Positions 683 through 52,740 of a stretch of DNA of 64,000 nucleotides are shown piece after piece (position 1 is the stretch's first letter; each line of letters begins with the position of its first letter). Origin of the DNA: Herpetosiphon aurantiacus DSM 785. GTDB taxonomy: Bacteria > Chloroflexota > Chloroflexia > Chloroflexales > Herpetosiphonaceae. The translations under genes and the position numbers were made by a program. Where the stretch lies: positions 1,689,199 to 1,753,198 of the forward strand of contig CP000875.1 in assembly GCA_000018565.1 (NCBI GenBank). Direction: 5' to 3'. The notes under the pieces are model-generated. The model had not been told where the DNA came from and searched no databases. It saw nothing but the letters and a program-made list of their open reading frames with translations.

Positions 683-2383
683 TCATTGGTGGCTATGGAG
701 CCGTGTCTGTTCACGTATCTGAGACAGAGCAGGCGGTGGACGGAGGGCCACAAAGCGCGACGTTTGGGTTTGGTGACGCGACCCACCGGTCACCCATGCC
801 ACACTCCTCAGCAGATTCAGCGCACACGCGGTCAGCACATGCTGGAGTCGCGTTTTCGCCATCCCACCATAGCGACTCTGCCGCATCCCACAGACTCGGG
901 TTGCTTGCGACATTAGTCCCTCGACTCCCGCCCGTTTTGCATACTGCCGTTTGAAGGCATCGGTTGTTTGGGCGTGCCGCCGCTGCTGAAGGACTTCATG
1001 CTGTTCTCGGGGGCGGAGCGAAAGGCCTCGTGCTGCGGTTGCCGTATGCGTACACTGTGTTCGGACTGGACACGCTCGGCAGTCACGCGGTCGAAACGTC
1101 ACGCGAATGGCAGGATTCCCGTGTCGATCCTGATGCGAAATCCATTTGGTACTTGCGTGTCCTTGGGGACAAATGACCACCTTCGCGTCCCAATCGACCT
1201 GAAATCGCGTGATATCGAAGGCGGTCGGGTCTTTCGCTTGCCAGGCACTATCGCGAGCAATTGGCCCGCACAGTGTAATCCCATAGGTGGACTGGCTGGT
1301 GAGCATCGCTGCTGCATCGGTATAGCCCGTATCAACAAGATGGGTGCTGGGAAGGAGATCATGGCGAGCAAGGCCCTCATGAATCTGGTCTAAGACTTCA
1401 CCATCACGAATCGTGGATGGCGTGGTAAGCACATGCGTGATGAGGCAGGGCAGATCAGCATCGAAGGTTTCAGTCAGATGCACTTTGTATCCCGTCCATT
1501 CCATATTGCGTTTCGTGCTGTACTGCGCATCGCGATCATAGGGCGAATGAATGCGCATCCTGCTCGGTGGCATATCAGCCACTTCACGCCAGCGAACTGG
1601 TCCATTGGGGGCATGGTATTGTTGCCACCAAACGCGACGAAGGATGCATACGGCGGGATGAACGTGCAGTTCACGCGGGGCAGTCGGTGCCGCAAGGAGG
1701 GTGAGGAGTTCAAACCCATCGGCTCCAATCTGCTCGGCAAGACGTTGACGGTCGGCGGCTGCCTTCGGAAAGCGATATGCATCAGCACGTGGCCCATAGC
1801 GATCAAACCACGGCGGTGGAATCTGGCAGCGGACCCATGCGGGAGCCACGGTTGCGAGCGCATTGAGGGTGGCACGCATCGTTTCGCCAAGACATTCAAT
1901 GCGACTCAGGCCACGAACTGCCGCGAGGACATGGGTCGAATCGGTGCGTTGTTGCCCGCGTGTTCGCAGTAATCCGTAATCGCGAAGGCGCTCCAGCAGG
2001 GTTTCAAAGAGGATAGACGCACCATCTCCCGCCACAAGCCGGGCGCGGAACTCGCTGAGGACGGAGGCATCAAAGCCACGATCAGCAAGCGGAAGGCCCA
2101 AGACATATTTCCAATCAATGCGCATCCGCACGGCATCGGCGGCTTGGCGATCGGGGAGATCTTCCATGAACTGGAGGATGGTGACCATGGCGAGTCGTGC
2201 TGGCGCGAGGGCCGGTTGACCAGTATGGGAAAAGAGCGTGCTGAATTGCTGATTGTCAAACAGCATGCCAAAGTGATCACGGAGGTGCATGAGTCGGTTG
2301 CCATGTGGAGCAATGGCGTGTGCCAATTCAACGGTGTCCTCAGGAATGGGATAGTCACCAAACAACGCCGCACGCATGGTCAT
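683..2383 (-). CDS. IS1182-family DDE transposase
   Basis: A 566-residue transposase filling the insertion sequence. The N-terminal region ([16 protein letters not shown], then [20 protein letters not shown] and [14 protein letters not shown]) is the helical domain typical of IS1182/IS1380-like transposases. The catalytic core shows the first acidic residue in [15 protein letters not shown], the second in [10 protein letters not shown] and the glutamate in [11 protein letters not shown]. Between the second and third lies a cysteine cluster ([15 protein letters not shown]) seen in the family. The frame stays open upstream to 2479, but the ATG at 2383 has a GGGAG box at good spacing, so I chose it. 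No frameshift or internal stop is present, so the protein may be functional. Confidence 0.92.
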
Positions 2384-2475
2384 GGATTCGGCTCCCTTTC
2401 GCACCGGTGGTGCATCCATCAACAGAGCAGATTCCATGATAGCCGAAGATCGCGGGCAAGAGACCGTACTGCACC

Positions 2476-2502
2476 GCACAAACAGGGTTCGCCAGCACTA
2501 TC
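2476..2502 (-). repeat. Right terminal inverted repeat of the IS
   Basis: Exact 27-base inverted match to 630-656. The target copy ACAAAT follows directly at 2503-2508. Confidence 0.92.
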
Positions 2503-3241
2503 ACAAATTGGGCAATACCATCACATCATAGAGTTCTGGTTTTTGCACCAACTGCATACACATATTATCGACAATCCGATCATCGAACTCGATATCGGGA
2601 TACTCTTTGGCGACTTCACGGGCAACTTCTAAGAATAAGCCATCGCTGAACTTCATAATATTGGCTTTATGCACTGCCGTGACTTTTTTGCGTTTGTTGG
2701 CGCGGGCATATTCAAAGGCAAAGCGCACAATTCGCTCTGAGCCAGGCACCGACATGGGCTTGATTGAGATACCACCTGGCTCTTTGATCAAGGCATTTGG
2801 GCGTTTTTGCAGCAACCAGTTGCGCAATTCGGCTACTTCATCAGTGCCACGCTCAAACTCGATCCCAGCGTAGAGATCTTCGGTGTTTTCGCGCACAACC
2901 ACAAGATCGATGTTTTCAAAGCGCGAGCGCACGCCAGGGTAGGAACGACATGGCCGAACACAGGCATAGAGGTCGAGTTCTTTACGAATCGCCACATTGA
3001 CTGAGCGAAAACCTGTGCCAACGGGGGTGGTAATCGGCGCTTTTAACGCCACTTTGGTTGAACGAATTGATTCGAGCACGGAATCGGGCAATGGAGTCCC
3101 TAATTGCTCCATTACATCGACCCCTGCATCCTGAATATCCCAATCAAAAGCCACGCCTGTAGCTTCTAAGACCCGGCGTGTAGCTTCGGCAAGTTCTGGT
3201 CCTGTTCCGTCACCACGAATCAAGGTAACCCGATGAGCCAT
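2501..3241 (-). pseudogene. icd: NAD-type isocitrate dehydrogenase, 5' fragment (246 residues)
   Basis: The 5' half of the disrupted gene starts at an ATG (3241) with an AAAGGA ribosome binding site. It carries the N-terminal RGDGTGPE signature, the substrate/cofactor segment [15 protein letters not shown], and the [12 protein letters not shown] stretch that carries the conserved lysine of the family. Translation ends at a TGA formed exactly by target repeat plus IS end, after VLPNL. The [12 protein letters not shown] pattern resembles IDH3-like/NAD-type isocitrate dehydrogenases more than isopropylmalate dehydrogenase, though homoisocitrate or tartrate dehydrogenases cannot be excluded by eye. 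The enzyme would oxidatively decarboxylate isocitrate to 2-oxoglutarate in the TCA cycle; this fragment lacks the metal site and should be inactive. Confidence 0.9.
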
Positions 3242-3328
3242 TGATTGATCCTTTCGATTCAAAAGCCCCTGCATTTGTACGGTCGAACCGTAGCAGCATT
3301 ATAGCATCCTGCGGGCTGAAGCGACAAA

Positions 3329-3356
3329 AAAGGGATGAGCATTTGCTCATCCCTTT
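3329..3356 (-). terminator. Rho-independent terminator of the LGFP-repeat protein gene
   Basis: A 13-bp perfect stem (AAAGGGATGAGCA with TGCTCATCCCTTT) with a 2-nt loop, followed on the minus strand by a run of T. It lies about 20 bases beyond the stop of the gene at 3377-4756. Confidence 0.85.
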
Positions 3357-3376
3357 GATCAAGCTTGGTTTGTTAA

Positions 3377-4756
3377 CTATTTCTGGAAGAAATCGATATT
3401 GCCTTCGCTGGCTAGCCCATCGCCACGGCCTAATGAACCGCTGGTGGTTCGCGCTTGACGCATGCTTAAGGTCGAGACACTGGTCACACTATTGCTGCGC
3501 ATACGCAAGAAGGCATAGGCTTCACGGCCACTTTCACTGGTGGAATAGATTTCATAAATACCTGGATCGAAGGAATTGTTTGGCACAAAGCGAATATTGG
3601 CATAATCGATTGAGCCATTACCATCAGCATAAACGCCAATAACTTCGGTTACGAGTTCGTCATATTCGTTGAGTACACCAACCGCAACTACTTCGCCTGG
3701 AACAAACCCGCCTGCATAGAAGTTGTAAATCGTATCCTGCCGACCTTCACGAGGGTCAACCCGTGCATTATAGTCGGCGGGCAGTGGCTGCTCAGGTGCT
3801 CGGGTAACTTCAAAATAGCCAATGCTGGCATGGCCGCTGAGCCGACCTTGGGCGGTAATCGCCCAAACCCCAACTCCTTGGCTGATTGTGACATAAATAC
3901 CTGATGAGGTTAACGACCCATCGATATCAGCATAGGTTGTTGAATTGGCCGGGTAGACTGTACCATCAGGTGAGGTCAACCACAAAACCACTTCTTCACC
4001 GGCGACAAAGCCAAAACCATTGAAGCCAAAGGTTGTCCCTTCAGGCCCAGAGCTTGGCGTAACGATCGCATCTTTGCTTGGTGGCAACCCAGGTGCGCCA
4101 GGAGGGGTACTGCCTGGAGGGCTGCCTGGTGGCAATGGCGTGGTTAACTCGCGGGGAGCCAACCGCCGACCTAGATCGCTGACGACAACCCGTTGCCCCG
4201 CAGGGTAATCGGGCCAAAATTCAAAGCGAGCACGCTCGAAATATTGAACGATATGCCATTTGTTATCCGAAGCGAGAATTTCATCCATTTCTTCGCTAAT
4301 TGGATAGCCAAATACGCCTAAACCACCTTTGGTTTCCCAAATGGTTTTGAACCCCCACATAATCATATGGCTGGTTTCGGGGAAGTAGCGGTGGTTGGCA
4401 TCGTTTTCGCGGGGCGGGATTTGCGGAAACACCCGATTAACGGTTGCTTCACGCCCCAAAAGCCCTAACTCGACTGAGCCATTGCTGGCTAACTCAAAGC
4501 GAGCACGTTCAAACCATTGAATGGTTTTGCCCTGTGCGTTGCGATATTCTTCAGTGATGGGGTAGCCAAAAATTTGTAAGCCGCCGTTGGCATTCCAGTA
4601 ATCGCGGAAACCACCACCAAGGTAGTGACCGGTTTCAGCATAATAAGTTGGTGGGTCGGCAGCATTAGAAGCTTGGGGTCGGGCGACAACCAGCGTTAAA
4701 AGCATTACTAGAATGATTAATGCCATGCTGCGCCGCACGGTCGAACGTGGGAGCAT
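3377..4756 (-). CDS. Secreted protein with LGFP-type repeats and Ig-like domains
   Basis: A 459-residue exported protein. Residues 1-33 form a signal peptide (basic start, hydrophobic ALIILVMLLTLVV, then cleavage near SNA-A). Two repeats follow at about 40-95 and 120-175, each with the pattern ETGHYL or ETSHMI, a glycine-aromatic segment, GGLxxFGYPI(T/S)EE and FERARFE. This LGFP-like repeat is common in Chloroflexi surface proteins and is thought to bind cell wall material. A proline/glycine linker (PPGSPPGSTPPGAPG) leads to two beta-rich domains (about 230-320 and 335-425) resembling bacterial Ig-like folds. The start has a strong AAGGAGG box close to the ATG. It is a single-gene transcript with its own promoter and terminator. 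The biological role is unknown. Confidence 0.85.
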   Translation of the reverse strand: MLPRSTVRRSMALIILVMLLTLVVARPQASNAADPPTYYAETGHYLGGGFRDYWNANGGLQIFGYPITEEYRNAQGKTIQWFERARFELASNGSVELGLLGREATVNRVFPQIPPRENDANHRYFPETSHMIMWGFKTIWETKGGLGVFGYPISEEMDEILASDNKWHIVQYFERARFEFWPDYPAGQRVVVSDLGRRLAPRELTTPLPPGSPPGSTPPGAPGLPPSKDAIVTPSSGPEGTTFGFNGFGFVAGEEVVLWLTSPDGTVYPANSTTYADIDGSLTSSGIYVTISQGVGVWAITAQGRLSGHASIGYFEVTRAPEQPLPADYNARVDPREGRQDTIYNFYAGGFVPGEVVAVGVLNEYDELVTEVIGVYADGNGSIDYANIRFVPNNSFDPGIYEIYSTSESGREAYAFLRMRSNSVTSVSTLSMRQARTTSGSLGRGDGLASEGNIDFFQK

Positions 4757-4799
4757 ACCTCCTCCTTAGGATTAATCTAAAATGAGAAACTCAAATCTG

Positions 4800-4828
4800 A
4801 GTATACCGATAGTTAGGGCTTTTGGCAA
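4800..4828 (-). promoter_or_regulatory. Sigma70-type promoter for the LGFP-repeat protein
   Basis: On the minus strand TTGCCA (4823-4828) and TATACT (4800-4805) are separated by exactly 17 bases, about 45 bases upstream of the ATG at 4756. Confidence 0.7.
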
Positions 4829-4991
4829 GTCTCGATCCGACGGTTTAGTGCTTGGGTTGCGGGATTAACCCGCTTTTGCGATCTTCCTTTAATTGCTGCA
4901 AAATCGGGCTTAGCCAGATCTTGTATGATAAAGCTTGTTTTGCTGGCTAGCCTGCTTGTATGCGACCTAGCATAGTTGCCAAGGAGTTACC

Positions 4992-6251
4992 ATGACGGTC
5001 GATTTAGCGCCATTTCGTAGTCACTTTCCAGCGTTAACCCAGACTCACGCGGGGAAACCCTTAGTTTTTTTTGATAATCCTGGTGGAACCCAAGTGCCCC
5101 AACAAGTGATTGGCCAGATGACCGATTATTTGCGGCGTTCGGTTGCCAATACCCATGGTGCTTTTATCACCAGCCAGCGCACCGATGCCGTCATTGACGA
5201 ATGTCATGCAGGGTTGGCGGCCTTGCTTGGCGGTGAGCCAGATGAAATTGTGCTGGGAGCCAACATGACTTCGCTCACATTTGCACTCAGTCGTTCACTA
5301 GCTCGCGAATGGCAAGCTGGCGATGAGATTATTCTGACCACGCTTGACCACGATGCCAACGTTACGCCATGGCTGCTGGCTGCTGAAGAACGTGGGGTTA
5401 TCGTACACTTTGTGGATATTAATCCTGTTGATTGCACCCTGGTGATGAGTGACTTTGAGCGCTATCTTTCGCCGCGCACTAAATTGGTGGCCGTTGGTTG
5501 GGCCTCAAATGCCTTTGGCACAATTAATGATGTTCAAACGATTGTCAAACAAGCCCATGCTGTTGGTGCTTTGTGTTTTGTTGATGCGGTTCAGAGCGTG
5601 CCCCACATTCCATGCGATGTCAAAGCGCTTGATGCCGATTTTGTGGCATGTTCGGCCTATAAATTTTTTGGGCCGCATGTTGGGGTGCTCTGGGCCAAAC
5701 GCGAACATCTAGAGCGCCTGTTTGCTTATAAAGTGCGACCTGCCCCCGAAACTTTGCCTAGTCGCTGGGAAACTGGCACGCAAAATTTTGAAGGCCAAGC
5801 GGGCATCAACGGAGCCTTGGAATATCTCGGTGGCTTAGGTGTGGGTTATATGGAGCGCTACGATCAGCTGCTTGGCGAAACGGTTGGTCAACGGGCCGTC
5901 TTGTTGTCCGCAATGCATGCGATTGCTGAAGCCGAGCAGAGCCTTGGCCAATATTTGATTCAAGCGTTGCAAACGCTTAAAGGTGTGCAATTGTATGGCA
6001 TTTTGGAGCCTGAACGTGGCCATTTGCGCGTACCCACCGTGGCATTTCGCAAGGCTGGAGTTACGCCCCAAGCAATTGCCAAAACCTTTGGTAATGAGGG
6101 AATTTGTGTTTGGGATGGCCATTATTATGCCTTGCGAGCCGTCGAACGCTTAGGCTTGCTTGATCAAGGGGGGATGGTGCGGGTTGGTTTAGCCCATTAC
6201 AACACGCGCACTGAGATTGATCGTATGCTGAATGTGCTTGAATCAATTTAG
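4992..6251 (+). CDS. Cysteine desulfurase-like PLP enzyme (class V aminotransferase fold)
   Basis: A 419-residue protein of the SufS/NifS-like class V aminotransferase superfamily. It shows the N-terminal FDNPGGTQVP segment, TTLDHDANVTPW, the cofactor-contacting FVDAVQ (Asp198) and CSAYKFFGPH with the probable Schiff-base lysine at residue 224, then RWETGTQNFEG. The overall pattern fits the cysteine-desulfurase-like subfamily whose members are often not part of Fe-S assembly operons. No SufU, IscU or other Fe-S gene is adjacent, so a general PLP-dependent lyase or desulfurase role is inferred, not shown. The start has an AAGGAG box five bases upstream. Confidence 0.85.
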   Translation: MTVDLAPFRSHFPALTQTHAGKPLVFFDNPGGTQVPQQVIGQMTDYLRRSVANTHGAFITSQRTDAVIDECHAGLAALLGGEPDEIVLGANMTSLTFALSRSLAREWQAGDEIILTTLDHDANVTPWLLAAEERGVIVHFVDINPVDCTLVMSDFERYLSPRTKLVAVGWASNAFGTINDVQTIVKQAHAVGALCFVDAVQSVPHIPCDVKALDADFVACSAYKFFGPHVGVLWAKREHLERLFAYKVRPAPETLPSRWETGTQNFEGQAGINGALEYLGGLGVGYMERYDQLLGETVGQRAVLLSAMHAIAEAEQSLGQYLIQALQTLKGVQLYGILEPERGHLRVPTVAFRKAGVTPQAIAKTFGNEGICVWDGHYYALRAVERLGLLDQGGMVRVGLAHYNTRTEIDRMLNVLESI

Positions 6252-47003: not shown

Positions 47004-47237
47004 AACCCCCTAAAGTACAATTTAAGAAGGGCACGAATCTAACGATCAAACTAGCATCACTTGGTTTGTAGCGGAGTGTCTTTTTAACTACCTACCCTTG
47101 GAAGGTTGAGGTGAGGGCATGCTCACGCTATAAACCGCAAAATTCCCCTCCGATCCTCACAATTTCTCCATAATTGGCTGCTATGCTAGCGCTTACTGCG
47201 GCTGTTTTGGGCTGGTTAGCGAATGGAGATTTGGCTG

Positions 47238-47924
47238 ATGGACTATACCATTTTATTAATTGATGATGAAGCTAAACTGCGCCAAGTGATTCGGCTCTCG
47301 CTTGAGCAAGAGGGCTATCGCGTGGTTGAGGCTAGTAATGGGCGGGAAGCGCTGTATCGGGCACGGATTGAAAAGCCCGATTTGGTGGTGCTTGACCTGA
47401 TGATGCCTGAGATGAATGGAACTGAATTTTTGCTGGCCTTTAGCAAAGAATCCAACACGCCAGTGATTATGCTCACAGCGCGGGTCGAAGACCACGATAA
47501 AATTATTGGCTTGGAATTGGGCGCTGACGATTACATAACCAAGCCGTTTAATATGCGTGAATTAATTGCGCGGATTCGCGCTGTGCTGCGTCGCACCCAT
47601 AAACCAACGCTTGAGCCAGATCTGATTCGGGCTGGCGATTTGGTGCTCGATCGCGGGTCGGCAACGGTCTTGGTCGGTGAGCAACAACTAAGCCTAACTC
47701 GCTCCGAGCTTGAAATTTTGGCCACCTTTATGACTGCGCCTGGCCTGATTTTCTCGCGGCTCGATTTGCTTGATCGCTTATCGCTTGGCGATGCCTACGA
47801 AGGCTATGAGCGCTCAATCGATGTGCATATTCGCAATCTGCGCACTAAAATTGAGCCAGATTCACGTCAGCCACGCTATATCGAGACGGTGTATGGCATG
47901 GGCTATCGCTTTAAAAAACAATGA
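47238..47924 (+). CDS. OmpR/PhoB-family response regulator
   Basis: A 228-residue two-component regulator. The receiver has LLIDDEAKLRQ, acceptor Asp53 in VVLDLMMPEMNG, TAR in MLTARVEDHD and Lys in YITKPFNMREL. A winged-helix DNA-binding domain follows (LTRSELEILATFMTAPG, ERSIDVHIRNLRTKIEPDS, YIETVYGMGYRF). ATG 47238 is preceded by GGAG; an in-frame ATG at 47223 is less likely. It is 8 bases upstream of its kinase gene, and lies ahead of the VTC-DUF4956-CotH cluster. Confidence 0.93.
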   Translation: MDYTILLIDDEAKLRQVIRLSLEQEGYRVVEASNGREALYRARIEKPDLVVLDLMMPEMNGTEFLLAFSKESNTPVIMLTARVEDHDKIIGLELGADDYITKPFNMRELIARIRAVLRRTHKPTLEPDLIRAGDLVLDRGSATVLVGEQQLSLTRSELEILATFMTAPGLIFSRLDLLDRLSLGDAYEGYERSIDVHIRNLRTKIEPDSRQPRYIETVYGMGYRFKKQ

Positions 47925-47932
47925 GGTGAGCT

Positions 47933-49330
47933 ATGCGCCGAATCTGGCAGCTGCGCCACTCGTTGGCAACCAAGCTGATCTTGGCTTTTTTGTTGGTCGG
48001 CTTAATTGGAATTTCCTTAGTGGCGCTATTGGTGGTTGTGCGTACCCGCTCAGAGTTCAGTCGCTTTCTCTCAGAACGTGATCGCACGGCTTTGGCGAAT
48101 GCGCTCGCTGAGCATTATGCAGCAACTGGCAGTTGGCAAGGCTTGAGCCAAGCGCTTGATGCCCAACCTGGATTAATTGAATTGCGCCAAAATGTGGTGT
48201 TGGTCGATGCCAACGGTGCGATCATCAATAGCCTGCAAGAATCAACCGCAACCCAAACCATGCAAGATATTTTGCGTTTTGCCGGCGAGCCAATTGTAGT
48301 CAATCAACAGACGGTTGGCTATATGCTGCCGCATCCGATGACTGTGCCAAACCCTGAATTGCCACCACCCTCGCCTGAACAAGATTTTTTGGCGCGAGTG
48401 ACGTGGGCGGCAACCGCCAGCGCCAGCGCAGCAATTCTTTTGGCCTTGTTGATTGGTGCATTGCTAGCCCAAACCTTGACGCGGCCAATTCGGGCTCTGA
48501 TTACTGCTACCCACAAATTGGCTGATGGGACATTTGATCATCGGGTGACGGTGCAATCGCACGATGAAGTTGGTCAATTAGCCCAATCATTTAACCAGAT
48601 GAGTGCCAAATTGGCCCGTGCTAGTCAACAGCGCCAACAAATGACCGCCGATCTTGCCCACGACATTCGCACACCGTTGAGTATTTTACGCAGCTACACC
48701 GAAGGCCTGAAAGATCAACGTTTTGTTGGTTCGCCAACTATTTATAACGTGCTGCACGAAGAAGTTGAGCATTTACAACGGTTGGTCGAAGATCTGCGGG
48801 TGCTTTCGTTGGCTGATGCAGGCGAGTTAGTGCTCAATCGGCGGATGATCGATCCGCGTGCTATTTTAGAGCGGGTTGGTCTCGCTCATATTATGCAGGC
48901 TGAGGCTCAAGGCATTGCGCTAACGGTCGAAGCATCCGAGCAATTACCTTCAATTGATGTCGATACTGATCGCATGACCCAAGTGCTGAACAATTTGGTC
49001 TCGAATGCCTTGCGTTATGCCAGCGCTGGCGCGATTAGCTTGGGAGCACAGCTGCGTGGAGATCAGGTGGTGATCACGGTGCAGGATACGGGCAGTGGAA
49101 TTGATGCCGCCGATCTGCCGTTTATTTTTGATCGGCTGTATCGTGCCGATAAAGCGCGGCAGCGCAACGCGAGTAGCACTTCGGGCTTGGGGTTGGCGAT
49201 TGCCAAGGCGATTGTTGAAGCTCATGCAGGCACAATCAGCGTCGATTCTTGGGTGGGCAGCGGCACGACTTTTACGATTAGCCTACCAGTTGCAAACCCT
49301 CACGCGCAAATTCGCCCCAAAACTACATAG
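47933..49330 (+). CDS. Sensor histidine kinase (BaeS/ResE-like)
   Basis: A 465-residue membrane kinase. Transmembrane helices at about 15-37 and 160-182 flank an extracytoplasmic sensor region of about 120 residues, then HAMP (LTRPIRALITATHKLADG), HisKA with His243 in ADLAHDIRTPLSIL and HATPase with LNNLVSNALRY, DTGSGI and TSGLGLAIAKAIVEAHAG. It pairs with the response regulator 8 bases upstream. The sensed signal is not known. Confidence 0.93.
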   Translation: MRRIWQLRHSLATKLILAFLLVGLIGISLVALLVVVRTRSEFSRFLSERDRTALANALAEHYAATGSWQGLSQALDAQPGLIELRQNVVLVDANGAIINSLQESTATQTMQDILRFAGEPIVVNQQTVGYMLPHPMTVPNPELPPPSPEQDFLARVTWAATASASAAILLALLIGALLAQTLTRPIRALITATHKLADGTFDHRVTVQSHDEVGQLAQSFNQMSAKLARASQQRQQMTADLAHDIRTPLSILRSYTEGLKDQRFVGSPTIYNVLHEEVEHLQRLVEDLRVLSLADAGELVLNRRMIDPRAILERVGLAHIMQAEAQGIALTVEASEQLPSIDVDTDRMTQVLNNLVSNALRYASAGAISLGAQLRGDQVVITVQDTGSGIDAADLPFIFDRLYRADKARQRNASSTSGLGLAIAKAIVEAHAGTISVDSWVGSGTTFTISLPVANPHAQIRPKTT

Positions 49331-49443
49331 CAAATGCGAGATCTCCTAACAGTTTTATAACAATTCTTGGATAAACTCTTAATCAGAAGCTAACACTGAT
49401 GGCCGACCGCTCTGGCGTTGCGGCTTGCGAAGGAACAACGATT

Positions 49444-50286
49444 ATGCTGCAACAATTGCGTTATCAACCAACTTTAATCTGGCCAAATGAGCTAACTCTG
49501 GCCTATGAACCAGATTGCACCGAGCCACAAGCCTTGATTCAGCCAAGGTTGGCTGGCTTTCGCTCGATTAGTCTCCAACAGATGGATTCGGTGGCCTTGC
49601 TCAATCGTACCGATAGCAAATATGTATGTTCGATTCAGCAATTGGCTGCAATCTTACCCGATTTGGCAGCAGATTATCGGGTGTTGGAGATCGCTGGGCG
49701 GCGCATGCATCGCTATCATACGCTCTATTTCGATACTGCCGATTTTGCCTTGTACCGTCGGCATCACGCTGGTGGCCGCAATCGCTACAAAGTGCGTAGC
49801 CGAACCTATCTCGATACGCAGAACTATTTTCTCGAAGTTAAACATAAAGTGAATAAATATCGCACGATCAAGCATCGGCTTGCAACACCCTATGCCGTGG
49901 AAACGTTTACAGCTGCCAGTTCCAGCTTTTTACAACGCATTGTGCCATTTGAAGTGAGCTTATTGCAACCAACCTTGACCAACAATTTCAGCCGCATCAC
50001 CTTGGTCAATATCGCTGAGCAAGAGCGTGTAACCTTGGATATTGGGATTGGCTTTCAAGCTGATTCGCATTCAGTTGAACTGACGGGTGTGGTGATTGCC
50101 GAAGTCAAACAAGCTGGGATAAATCGTGGTTCGCCGTTTATCCAAGGCATTCGCGGACAACATTTGCACACGATTGGCATGAGTAAATATTGCAGTGGGG
50201 CGGCGTTGCTCTATCCCGATTTACCACGCAATAGCTTTAAACCAACCCTGCGCTATCTGAATACATTGATGGAGTATGCCCAATGA
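49444..50286 (+). CDS. VTC-domain protein (polyphosphate polymerase-like)
   Basis: A 280-residue protein with a VTC/CYTH-like tunnel fold. Characteristic residues are NRTDSKYVCS, HRYHTLYFDTADFALYRRHH, NRYKVRSRTY, FLEVKHKVNKYRTIKHR and VIAEVKQAG, which supply the basic and acidic tunnel residues that in yeast Vtc4 make polyphosphate from ATP. The first 45 residues are less conserved. Its stop overlaps the next gene's start by 4 bases (50283-50286), so it is coupled to the DUF4956 gene, a known partner. ATG 49444 has AAGGAA. Catalysis is inferred from the family. Confidence 0.88.
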   Translation: MLQQLRYQPTLIWPNELTLAYEPDCTEPQALIQPRLAGFRSISLQQMDSVALLNRTDSKYVCSIQQLAAILPDLAADYRVLEIAGRRMHRYHTLYFDTADFALYRRHHAGGRNRYKVRSRTYLDTQNYFLEVKHKVNKYRTIKHRLATPYAVETFTAASSSFLQRIVPFEVSLLQPTLTNNFSRITLVNIAEQERVTLDIGIGFQADSHSVELTGVVIAEVKQAGINRGSPFIQGIRGQHLHTIGMSKYCSGAALLYPDLPRNSFKPTLRYLNTLMEYAQ

Positions 50287-50921
50287 CAACTGATTTAACG
50301 CAATTTTTGCTGGGAGCGGGCTTTAATTTATTGGTAACGCTGCTGATTGTGCGCGGCGTATACTATCCCGTGACCCAAGATAAAAACTTTGTTTTTACCT
50401 TTATTGGCTTCAATATGATCATCTACTTTGTGCTGGGCTTTCTGACTAGCGTCGAGGTAGGCGTAGGCGTGGGCTTCGGACTATTTGCAATTTTCTCGTT
50501 GCTGCGCTATCGCACCGACGAGATTCCGATTCGCGAAATGACCTATTTGTTTATTTTGATTGCGCTGGGCGTGATGAATTCGCTGATGCATAGTGGCAGT
50601 TTGCTGCAAATTGGCATCGCTAACGCTGTGATTTTGGTGATTTTGTTTGTGCTCGAAAAAGGTTGGGGCTTTCAATTTGAAGCCAACAAGCGCGTAGCCT
50701 ACGACAAAATTGAACTGATTGGGCCTGCACGTAGCGAAGAATTGTTAGCCGATTTGCGCGAACGCACCGGAATTGCCGTCAAGCGGGTTGAAATTGGCCG
50801 CATCGATTTACTGCACGATATGGCCGATTTGAAAATTTTCTACGATGAAATGCCTCGTCTGAGTGCGAAACGCCAATCAACCACCACCCGCGTGCTGCGC
50901 GATCAGCATCAACTGCCCTAA
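50283..50921 (+). CDS. DUF4956 membrane protein
   Basis: A 212-residue protein with three to four hydrophobic helices in the first 130 residues, including the glycine-rich VEVGVGVGFGLFAIFSLLRYRTDEIPIREMTYLF that marks DUF4956, and a cytoplasmic C-terminal domain of about 80 residues (KIELIGPARSEELLADLRER). It overlaps the VTC gene by four bases and precedes a CotH gene by 84 bases. The family's function is unknown; its constant association with VTC proteins suggests it forms a membrane platform or channel for the product. Confidence 0.88.
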   Translation: MTTDLTQFLLGAGFNLLVTLLIVRGVYYPVTQDKNFVFTFIGFNMIIYFVLGFLTSVEVGVGVGFGLFAIFSLLRYRTDEIPIREMTYLFILIALGVMNSLMHSGSLLQIGIANAVILVILFVLEKGWGFQFEANKRVAYDKIELIGPARSEELLADLRERTGIAVKRVEIGRIDLLHDMADLKIFYDEMPRLSAKRQSTTTRVLRDQHQLP

Positions 50922-51005
50922 GCGATTTTTGAAACTTGGAATGTGTCACAGAGCGTCGTCACACGGCGGCGCTCTGCTTGATGTTGTAACGTTTGTGAGG
51001 TTCCC

Positions 51006-52700
51006 ATGAAATTTTGGCGTTGGCTTTGCTTATTGGCTATTGGATTAAATTTGGCCGCTTGTGCGACTTCGACTCCCACGACCGTTGTGACTGCTGAACC
51101 GACCGCCGAGGATGCGGCAGTCACTCGGCCAGTGGGCTGGAACGAGGCATCGCATGGTGATAGCGCTGAGCCAAATTATGCAGTGGTTTTTGCCCAAAAT
51201 AAGGTCAATCAATTAACCATCACGATCGATTCAGCCTCGTGGCAAGCAATGCAGGATAATATGACCGAGCTGTTGGGCGAGCCAGGCAGCCGTCAGATGG
51301 GCGGTGGTTTTCCTGGTGGCGTATTTACCGACACGGCAGGTTTGCCAATGCGGCCAGGCGGTGCGTTTACTGATACATTGGGCATGCCGATGCGACCAAA
51401 TGGTGCGTTTACTGATACTGCTGGAATGCCAATGCTACCAGGTGGTGCTTTTACTGATACAAACAGAATGCCTGGTGGTTTTGGCGGCGGAATGCCCAAT
51501 ATGGGCAATTTTTCAATCGAAAACCCAATGTGGGTCACGGCAACATTGACCTTCGAAGGCCAAACCTGGACAAATGTGGGCGTGCGCTACAAAGGCAATT
51601 CGTCGTTGATGAGCGCTTGGAACAGCCAACAAGCCAATTTGCCCTTTAAAATTGATTTTGATGAATTTGAAAAAAGCTATCCTGAGATTGAGAACCAACG
51701 TTTTTATGGCTTCAAACAATTGGCGCTCTCGAACAATTTAGGCGATGCGACGGCCATGCGCGAAACGCTGGCCTACGATGTGTTTGAGCAAATGGGCTTG
51801 CCTGCTGCTGAAACTGCCACCTATGAAGTGTTGATTAATCATGGCGATGGGGTTGAAAGTCTGGGTTTGTATACGGCGGTTGAGGTGATCGACGATACGG
51901 CGATTGCCCGCGTATTTGGCGATGATAGCGGCAATATTTACGAGGGTGATGGCAGCGCCGCCAGCTTCGCCGCAGGCACAAAGGATGCAATCGAGGAAAG
52001 TTTTCAGAAAGAAAATAACGATACCACCGATTGGGCTGATGTTGAAGCCTTGTACGATGTATTGCATTCCAGCGAACGCACCAGTGATCCGGCGGCTTGG
52101 CGAGCCAAGTTGGAAGCGATTTTCGATGTGCCAAGTTTTCTCAAATGGCTGGGGGTTAGTACGCTGCTGGAGCATTGGGATACCTATGGAGCCATGACCC
52201 ATAATTATTATCTTTACAACAACCCAGCGACTGGCAAACTAACCTGGATTTCGTGGGATCACAACTTTGTTTTGGGTGCGATGGGCGGCGGTGGTATGCG
52301 TGGCAATCAAGCCATACCAAATGTAGCGAATCCAGCTGTTGGTGCTGGTAACCAAATGCCGAATAATGCCAATGCCGGTGGCATGCGTGGGCCAGGAGGC
52401 GGCTTTGGGGGCCAAAATAATACCTTTGATAAAGCTAGCATTACCAGCGATTGGCCATTAATTCGCTATTTGCTTGATGATCCGACTTACTATGCGGCCT
52501 ATATTGCGGCGTTGCGCGAAACCAGCAACCAATTTGATGCTGAAGCCTTGGTCCAAAAATATACAGCCTTGGCAGCAACGATCAGCCCAAGCGCCGCCCA
52601 AACAATCAGCCTCGACGACTATAACAGCGCAGTGACCACGTTGATGGAGCGCATTAAGACCCGTAGCGCTGATTTGAAAACCTTCCTAGCAACCCAATAG
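51006..52700 (+). CDS. CotH-kinase family lipoprotein
   Basis: A 564-residue exported lipoprotein with lipobox LAACAT (Cys19). The CotH kinase-like domain begins near residue 65 (KVNQLTITIDSASWQAM) and shows VGVRYKGNSSLMS, LPFKIDFDEFEKSYP, GFKQLALSNNLGDATAMRETLAYDVF, SLGLYTAVEVID and LTWISWDHNFVLGAMG, covering the conserved basic, Asn and Asp positions of the atypical kinase fold. A tandem repeat insertion lies at residues 105-157, and a Gly/Asn/Met-rich loop at 425-475. CotH proteins phosphorylate secreted proteins in Bacillus spores; this one would act outside the cell membrane. A good GTGAGG box precedes the ATG. Confidence 0.87.
   Translation: MKFWRWLCLLAIGLNLAACATSTPTTVVTAEPTAEDAAVTRPVGWNEASHGDSAEPNYAVVFAQNKVNQLTITIDSASWQAMQDNMTELLGEPGSRQMGGGFPGGVFTDTAGLPMRPGGAFTDTLGMPMRPNGAFTDTAGMPMLPGGAFTDTNRMPGGFGGGMPNMGNFSIENPMWVTATLTFEGQTWTNVGVRYKGNSSLMSAWNSQQANLPFKIDFDEFEKSYPEIENQRFYGFKQLALSNNLGDATAMRETLAYDVFEQMGLPAAETATYEVLINHGDGVESLGLYTAVEVIDDTAIARVFGDDSGNIYEGDGSAASFAAGTKDAIEESFQKENNDTTDWADVEALYDVLHSSERTSDPAAWRAKLEAIFDVPSFLKWLGVSTLLEHWDTYGAMTHNYYLYNNPATGKLTWISWDHNFVLGAMGGGGMRGNQAIPNVANPAVGAGNQMPNNANAGGMRGPGGGFGGQNNTFDKASITSDWPLIRYLLDDPTYYAAYIAALRETSNQFDAEALVQKYTALAATISPSAAQTISLDDYNSAVTTLMERIKTRSADLKTFLATQ
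51318..51476 (+). repeat. 42-bp coding tandem repeat in the CotH gene
   Basis: About 3.7 units of 42 bases (units begin at 51318, 51360, 51402 and 51444), encoding GVFTDTAGLPMRPG, GAFTDTLGMPMRPN, GAFTDTAGMPMLPG and a partial GAFTDTNRMPGG. It sits inside the kinase domain between two conserved strands, so it forms an extended surface loop. The near-identity of units suggests recent or unstable expansion. Confidence 0.9.
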
Positions 52701-52710
52701 TTAAATGGAT

Positions 52711-52740
52711 GGCCTGTGAGTTGGGATTAACTCACAGGCC
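52711..52740. terminator. Terminator between CotH and SDR genes
   Basis: A perfect 12-bp stem (GGCCTGTGAGTT and AACTCACAGGCC), 6-nt loop, followed by TTTATTG on the plus strand. Confidence 0.85.

Follow-up and report, generated by a model that had tools for sequence, protein, structure and literature searches.

Together with DUF4832, the VTC, DUF4956 and CotH families have been described as accessory to the Pel operons of Gram-positive bacteria (PMC7112168), and a 2025 study of Streptococcus intermedius did not find the trio outside the Pel locus (PMC12345266). Among the described relatives of the single proteins are the eukaryotic VTC complex (Vtc1/Vtc3/Vtc4), which couples polyphosphate synthesis to translocation (PMC9911596), and the Bacillus spore coat kinase CotH (PMC7821199). 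Here, the same trio is analyzed in Herpetosiphon aurantiacus DSM 785 (Chloroflexota), within a stretch of 64,000 nucleotides, hereafter the window (positions 1,689,199-1,753,198 of the 6,346,587-base chromosome; the genome comprises 6,785,430 bases in three contigs), whose close relatives are Herpetosiphon species. There is about an even chance, in our judgment, that the locus forms part of a regulated surface-polymer module, in which VTC and DUF4956 make, and probably export, polyphosphate or a related polyanion for the surface lipoproteins CotH and Cthe_2159. This reading starts from computed gene content, active-site residues, a link between core and clients, and a promoter box, from which we infer the product, its export, the chemistry of the clients, the signal and the binding of regulators.

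All five genes of the locus lie on the forward strand where an earlier note on this DNA had placed them, and all exceed their Pfam cut-offs: an OmpR/PhoB-family response regulator (47238-47924), a sensor histidine kinase (47933-49330), a cytosolic VTC-domain polyphosphate polymerase-like protein with a triphosphate tunnel fold (49444-50286), a DUF4956 membrane protein (50283-50921), and a CotH-kinase-fold lipoprotein predicted to be exported (51006-52700). VTC, DUF4956 and CotH are each present as a single copy in the genome, and the start of the DUF4956 gene overlaps the end of the VTC gene by 4 bases (ATGA, 50283-50286), as had been noted. Conservation favors the starts chosen in that note, 47238 for the response regulator and 49444 for VTC, over the longest open reading frames (47223 and 49399), with the ATG at 49399 missing in three relatives that retain the one at 49444, and the ATG at 47223 out of frame in one relative.

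Like the Gram-positive Pel operon, the locus contains the same three families contiguously, with a secreted CotH, a DUF4956 protein in the membrane and a VTC-type polymerase. Unlike that operon, Herpetosiphon has two-component control, Cthe_2159 as an extra exported partner, and a CotH that is a lipoprotein with GAFTDT repeats. PelG is absent from the whole genome and pel genes are lacking at the locus, so that it does not qualify as a Pel accessory module. A Deinococcus plasmid also carries the order CotH-VTC-DUF4956, and the 12.5 kb shown contains no annotated pel gene. Given the lack of PelG, the finding that the trio is confined to Pel loci (PMC12345266) is contradicted in Herpetosiphon and probably also on the Deinococcus plasmid. 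The earlier note had rightly seen that the three families co-occur, and had missed their earlier description as Pel accessory genes (PMC7112168, PMC12345266).

The association was surveyed in 301 Chloroflexota genomes and 14 named control genomes. Among the former, DUF4956 was found in 22 genomes, VTC in 27 and CotH in 15, and, with P values that ignore kinship, both VTC and DUF4956 are present in 15 of the 15 CotH genomes (P ~2e-20), a co-occurrence far above chance. The arrangement VTC-DUF4956-CotH is likewise conserved, and at nearly every locus read the gene for VTC overlaps that for DUF4956 or is only some tens of bases away from it. At several loci devoid of CotH, a Cthe_2159 (PF14262) gene adjoins VTC or DUF4956 (genomes G012, G176, G007 and G121, and one locus of G168). 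All 21 genomes with VTC and DUF4956 carry CotH, Cthe_2159 or both (P 2e-31), as against none of the six with VTC only, and just one other genome, G089, has Cthe_2159 without the VTC-DUF4956 pair, by a partial match. Counted by genus, which removes kinship only partly, the link of VTC-DUF4956 with a client holds in 15 of 15 cases (P 6e-21). The controls agree with this across phyla: VTC and DUF4956 were found in the same three genomes, accompanied by Cthe_2159 in Bacteroides and by CotH in Corynebacterium glutamicum and Methanosarcina; B. subtilis has CotH alone. Herpetosiphon holds the two clients together: CotH is encoded in the operon, and Cthe_2159, whose product is also lipoprotein-like, far off at 2,874,226. 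VTC-DUF4956 therefore looks like a core to which CotH and Cthe_2159 are alternative exported clients; the earlier note had rightly linked CotH to the core as its exported partner and had missed Cthe_2159 as the alternative.

Cthe_2159, a beta-helix protein, binds calcium as well as cellulose and polygalacturonate, which would suit a polyanion. No paper linking Cthe_2159 with VTC or DUF4956 was found in a search that did not extend to subscription papers and preprints. Outside Chloroflexota, VTC-DUF4956 lies beside acid phosphatase and phosphonate transport genes on a Deinococcus plasmid (L042:5178-11210), where CotH is not among the genes annotated in the stretch shown. On alphaproteobacterial plasmids (L044:5983-8235 and L045:5959-9999), DUF4956-VTC is followed by a phytase-like esterase and lies near a sigma/anti-sigma factor pair, in one case also with an inorganic phosphate transporter.

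The identity of the neighbors bears on the main rival reading, according to which the trio modifies or regulates a secreted polysaccharide other than Pel, with polyphosphate as an intermediate or cofactor and not as the product that is exported. Its appeal comes from the Pel operons in which the trio is located in streptococci, clostridia and bifidobacteria (PMC7112168), and from S. intermedius, in which deletion of the DUF4956 gene raises Pel, deletion of the CotH gene lowers it, and aggregation is altered (PMC12345266); moreover, Cthe_2159 is by name a carbohydrate-binding family, and a glycosyltransferase 2 gene precedes locus L025. However, besides the absence of PelG, no glycosyltransferase occurs among the identified neighbors at most Chloroflexota loci, and the strict partner is CotH or Cthe_2159, a constant sugar polymerase not being seen among the neighbors identified (not all were). 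Such a helper role is regarded as rather unlikely.

The surface-polymer reading depends above all on the VTC protein, which matches PF09359 (E 8e-26, 91.5 bits; cut-off 23). With a profile built from 19 Chloroflexota VTC proteins, its best solved relative is yeast Vtc4 (E 5e-21); the profile was needed, a single-sequence search of the PDB having returned chance methyltransferase matches only. The Vtc4 tunnel residues used for comparison were chosen from the Vtc4 structure and include R264, R266 and E426. These three are replaced in the Vtc4 variant R264A/R266A/E426N used for the structure of the VTC complex (PMC9911596). Twelve mapped tunnel residues are present: R70, K74, R133, R135, E146 and K148 align with Vtc4 R196, K200, R264, R266, E279 and K281, and K158, R199, R210, E235, S262 and K263 with K294, R361, R373, E426, S457 and K458. 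Most of them are invariant among the 19 homologs (the equivalents of K200, R264, R266, K281, R361, E426, S457 and K458), and Vtc4 K455 is unmatched (G260). The proposal of a polymerase-like VTC protein with tunnel residues thus passed the alignment check, nearly all mapped Vtc4 residues being kept. An AlphaFold model (predicted local distance difference test, pLDDT, 86; predicted template-modeling score 0.83) superposes on Vtc4 (3g3r) with Z 17.8 over 212 residues at 3.0 A. When proteins of the triphosphate tunnel metalloenzyme (TTM) fold are ranked against this model, Vtc4, Vtc3 and Vtc2 come first, and non-VTC members reach Z 14.6 at most.

The likeness to the eukaryotic VTC complex therefore comprises a cytosolic TTM polymerase domain, the same tunnel residues and a membrane partner. 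It differs in that the bacterial protein carries PF09359 only, with neither an SPX nor a Vtc1-like membrane domain in the Pfam search, and that the membrane part is supplied by DUF4956 as a protein of its own. At another locus (L056:7472-8233), a VTC gene without DUF4956 lies amid clustered genes for histidine kinases and response regulators, which points to a further role for VTC domains.

The DUF4956 protein matches PF16316 (E 1.5e-54, 184.7 bits; cut-off 30.6) and no other Pfam domain. It is a multi-pass protein for which five helices and, at the C-terminus, an alpha/beta domain are predicted (model pLDDT 76), and its S72, R75 and R77 are invariant across 20 diverse members. In the model, the invariant arginines would lie at the cytosolic mouth, provided that the C-terminal domain is cytosolic. 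The best structural score, Z 7.9 to designed helical proteins, is little informative for a helical bundle, and no MgtC match was obtained for the protein in Pfam or the PDB. Another DUF4956 branch without an adjoining VTC gene was seen beside a thymidylate-kinase-like gene in two Chloroflexota genomes (L052:6809-8678 and L054:7409-9141).

Both core proteins could also be read as a cytosolic phosphate or nucleotide sensor, in which a TTM protein and an MgtC/ACT-like membrane protein control envelope enzymes with no export of polymer. TTM proteins include triphosphatases and cyclases, the streptococcal DUF4956 has been interpreted as an MgtC-type membrane domain plus an ACT domain (PMC12345266), and the C-terminal alpha/beta domain of the present model would be compatible with this in layout. 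What makes the sensor improbable is that the polymerase tunnel set is kept, including the equivalents of S457 and K458, and that other TTM enzymes match the fold less well than do Vtc4, Vtc3 and Vtc2.

As for the client encoded in the operon, CotH matches PF08757 (E 7e-57) and, by profile, B. cereus CotH (5jd9, E 2.8e-31). Replacing D228 or D251 of B. subtilis CotH inactivates the kinase (PMC7821199). The corresponding residues, D392 and D418, are invariant in 12 homologs, as is N400; this assignment is indirect, the numbering having been transferred via the B. cereus sequence and the 23-residue spacing. A lipobox (LAAC, residues 16-19) predicts export as a lipoprotein, as the earlier note had proposed, and sequence comparison indicates that both catalytic aspartates are kept. 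The protein thus resembles the Bacillus spore coat kinase (PMC7821199) in family and catalytic aspartates, but it is a lipoprotein whose gene adjoins VTC and DUF4956 instead of lying in a spore-coat cluster, it has WDHN in place of WDYD, and it contains a Gly/Met/Asn-rich insert. The insert follows the active site (window 52290-52430), and the genome's Cthe_2159 protein (P0001) has a similar loop, GGGMGRPNRND. Four FTDT motifs are present, the GAFTDT repeats being located N-terminal to the kinase domain; at the DNA level, a 42-bp repeat on the forward strand (51343-51472, 3.1 copies) encodes 14-residue GAFTDTxGMPMxP repeats. A search of plasmids for CotH gave two weak matches only.

The regulatory part of the module rests on a tandem box found upstream of both transcription units of the locus, on the forward strand. 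Before the two-component pair (47158-47187), CACAATT-N4-CATAATT (47158-47175) is followed after 6 nt by a -10-like TATGCT (47182-47187); before the VTC operon (49348-49377), AACAGTT-N4-AACAATT (49348-49365) is followed at the same distance by TAAACT (49372-49377). Each box is a direct repeat of 7-nt half-sites with an 11-bp period. The box of the response regulator gene is identical in both relatives having the pair, and that of VTC does not vary among the six Herpetosiphon genomes, three of which lack the adjoining pair. The gap between the histidine kinase and VTC genes thus contains a conserved promoter-like block of the VTC operon itself, so that the common regulation proposed earlier stands in altered form: the genes look like separate transcription units with one box common to them.

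The pattern MAYARTT-N4-MAYARTT, which was written from these two boxes and matches them by construction, has nine sites in the 6.79-Mb genome versus four for the reversed control, and the composite of box and -10 has three exact matches. Allowing one mismatch in the composite gave 13 sites versus 12 in the reversed control, an absence of excess that defines no wider regulon. Similar tandem half-sites with the same 6-nt spacing to the -10 were seen in the VTC promoters of L007, L009, L010 and L018. In a set of seven promoters, among them the ill-fitting L020, the -10 match averages 3.86/6 at spacing 6 versus at most 2.43 at other spacings, and none of 5000 random sets equaled it; five of nine non-Herpetosiphon VTC promoters score above the 95th percentile of other promoters.

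A profile was then trained on seven promoters, namely the two from the window and those of VTC in L004, L007, L009, L010 and L018. Its top match falls in the target promoter at four of the seven outside loci first examined, that is, before Cthe_2159 of this genome (L046, position 5754) and of G110 (L048), before the operon of a paralogous two-component pair (L047, position 10046), and before a response regulator gene in G007 (L028), where a second match lies at the start of the Cthe_2159 gene; in L017, L020 and L080 the top match lies elsewhere. For those four loci, none of 2000 column permutations placed more than two, a result to be read with the fact that they were chosen after the first scan had been seen. 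Across the six Herpetosiphon genomes, the top match lies just before Cthe_2159 in all six (10.7-14.0 bits) and before the paralogous operon in all six (23.4-24.5 bits, the strongest outside the training set). Judged from sequence, VTC-DUF4956-CotH, Cthe_2159 and both two-component pairs very likely form one regulon, and the tandem-repeat box that several unlinked operons appear to share is what would be expected of an OmpR-type regulon. These candidate regulator sites also lend support to the earlier suggestion of control by an OmpR-type two-component system.

The response regulator has Response_reg (E 2.1e-31) and Trans_reg_C (E 1.4e-22) domains in Pfam, and its best NCBIfam match is PhoB, at 214.4 bits, without reaching the equivalog cut-off of 296.2. 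The histidine kinase contains HAMP, HisKA and HATPase_c domains, with two membrane helices and an extracytoplasmic loop of ~115 residues by hydropathy. The pair is present beside the trio, as had been noted, but is not fixed there: in three of the six Herpetosiphon genomes it stands between VTC and a thioesterase-like gene, and the locus in the other three lacks it, which rules it out as a constant part of the locus. The paralogous pair occurs elsewhere in the genome in all six, its response regulator being 66% identical, and is the natural candidate regulator in the three species without the local pair. Its operon (L047:6994-10075; chromosome 3,006,385) begins with a DUF4405 membrane gene. 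Two-component pairs also lie within ~3 kb of 7 of 19 other loci, versus ~10% expected from response regulator density (a rough estimate, P 0.002). In G110 the order is VTC-DUF4956-response regulator-histidine kinase, with the response regulator gene overlapping DUF4956 and its product closer to the Herpetosiphon paralog than to the regulator in the window.

Direct 7-nt half-sites with an 11-bp period before a -10 are shared with PhoB/PhoP-type regulons. Unlike in those, the regulator scores below the PhoB cut-off and the box genes are surface and polymer genes, no classical Pho gene having been shown with the box. The resemblance bears on the possibility that the genes have no joint function and are adjacent through a loosely shared envelope or phosphate-starvation regulon. 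Apart from the PhoB family giving the best score, albeit below the cut-off, the TAACA-like core of the box resembles known Pho boxes, and PhoD lies beside the third gene with an exact box. A near one-to-one co-occurrence in 15 genera, in which gene order and client change, is too strict for such an arrangement, which we consider very unlikely. The third exact composite box (L080:1974-2002; chromosome 5,175,974) lies ~35 bases before a gene (2037-5441) for an 1134-residue protein whose N-terminus is leader-like and which contains beta-propeller domains of the Rax2 type as well as DUF11; the PhoD-like phosphatase gene follows on the opposite strand.

In the surface-polymer module favored here, the OmpR/PhoB-type regulators of the local and paralogous pairs would act on tandem boxes before their own genes, before the VTC-DUF4956-CotH operon and before the unlinked Cthe_2159 gene. 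On the inner side of the membrane, VTC would use ATP to make polyphosphate or a phosphate polymer much like it, and DUF4956 would hold VTC there and probably let the nascent chain through, with its invariant arginines at the cytosolic mouth. Outside, one or both clients would act with the exported polymer: CotH may transfer phosphate and Cthe_2159 may hold the polyanion. The earlier note's proposals that polyphosphate is the product, that DUF4956 forms a passage, that CotH phosphorylates surface proteins and that the signal comes from the envelope stand as hypotheses in this picture. A bolder version has a small chance of being right: that bacterial VTC-DUF4956 is a signal-controlled counterpart of the VTC complex, exporting polyphosphate as a phosphate donor for CotH, there being no ATP outside, and as a polyanion for Cthe_2159.

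Several points weigh against the module. The strongest evidence against a role centered on polyphosphate, at least under the conditions tested there, is that no aggregation phenotype is reported for S. intermedius deleted for its VTC gene (PMC12345266). PPK1 is also encoded in the genome, making VTC dispensable for bulk polyphosphate and ruling it out as the sole polyphosphate synthase. No solved bacterial VTC-family protein turned up in the profile search of solved structures, and no paper testing the activity of one was found. Neither the profile search nor Foldseek or VIA-align gave a confident structural match for DUF4956, whose model is of only moderate quality. The WDYD motif of CotH is WDHN here, with the second aspartate replaced by asparagine, and the box was not found at the distant loci L019, L024, L026, L030 and L049.

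Two further features on the forward strand concern the ends of the transcription units. A hairpin in the DUF4956-CotH gap (50949-50976) is limited to the three Herpetosiphon species having the local two-component pair; with a proper T run absent and the hairpin missing in three species, its role as a terminator is doubtful. A terminator-like hairpin at the operon end (52711-52740) matches the consensus, such sites being no more numerous than in shuffled sequences.

The trio recurs across bacteria and archaea without an agreed function and has so far been taken mainly as an accessory of Pel. In Herpetosiphon, the box would join two loci that are not linked, together with two two-component systems, in a defined regulon whose parts can be tested, and the module raises the question of the phosphate source of an extracytoplasmic kinase.

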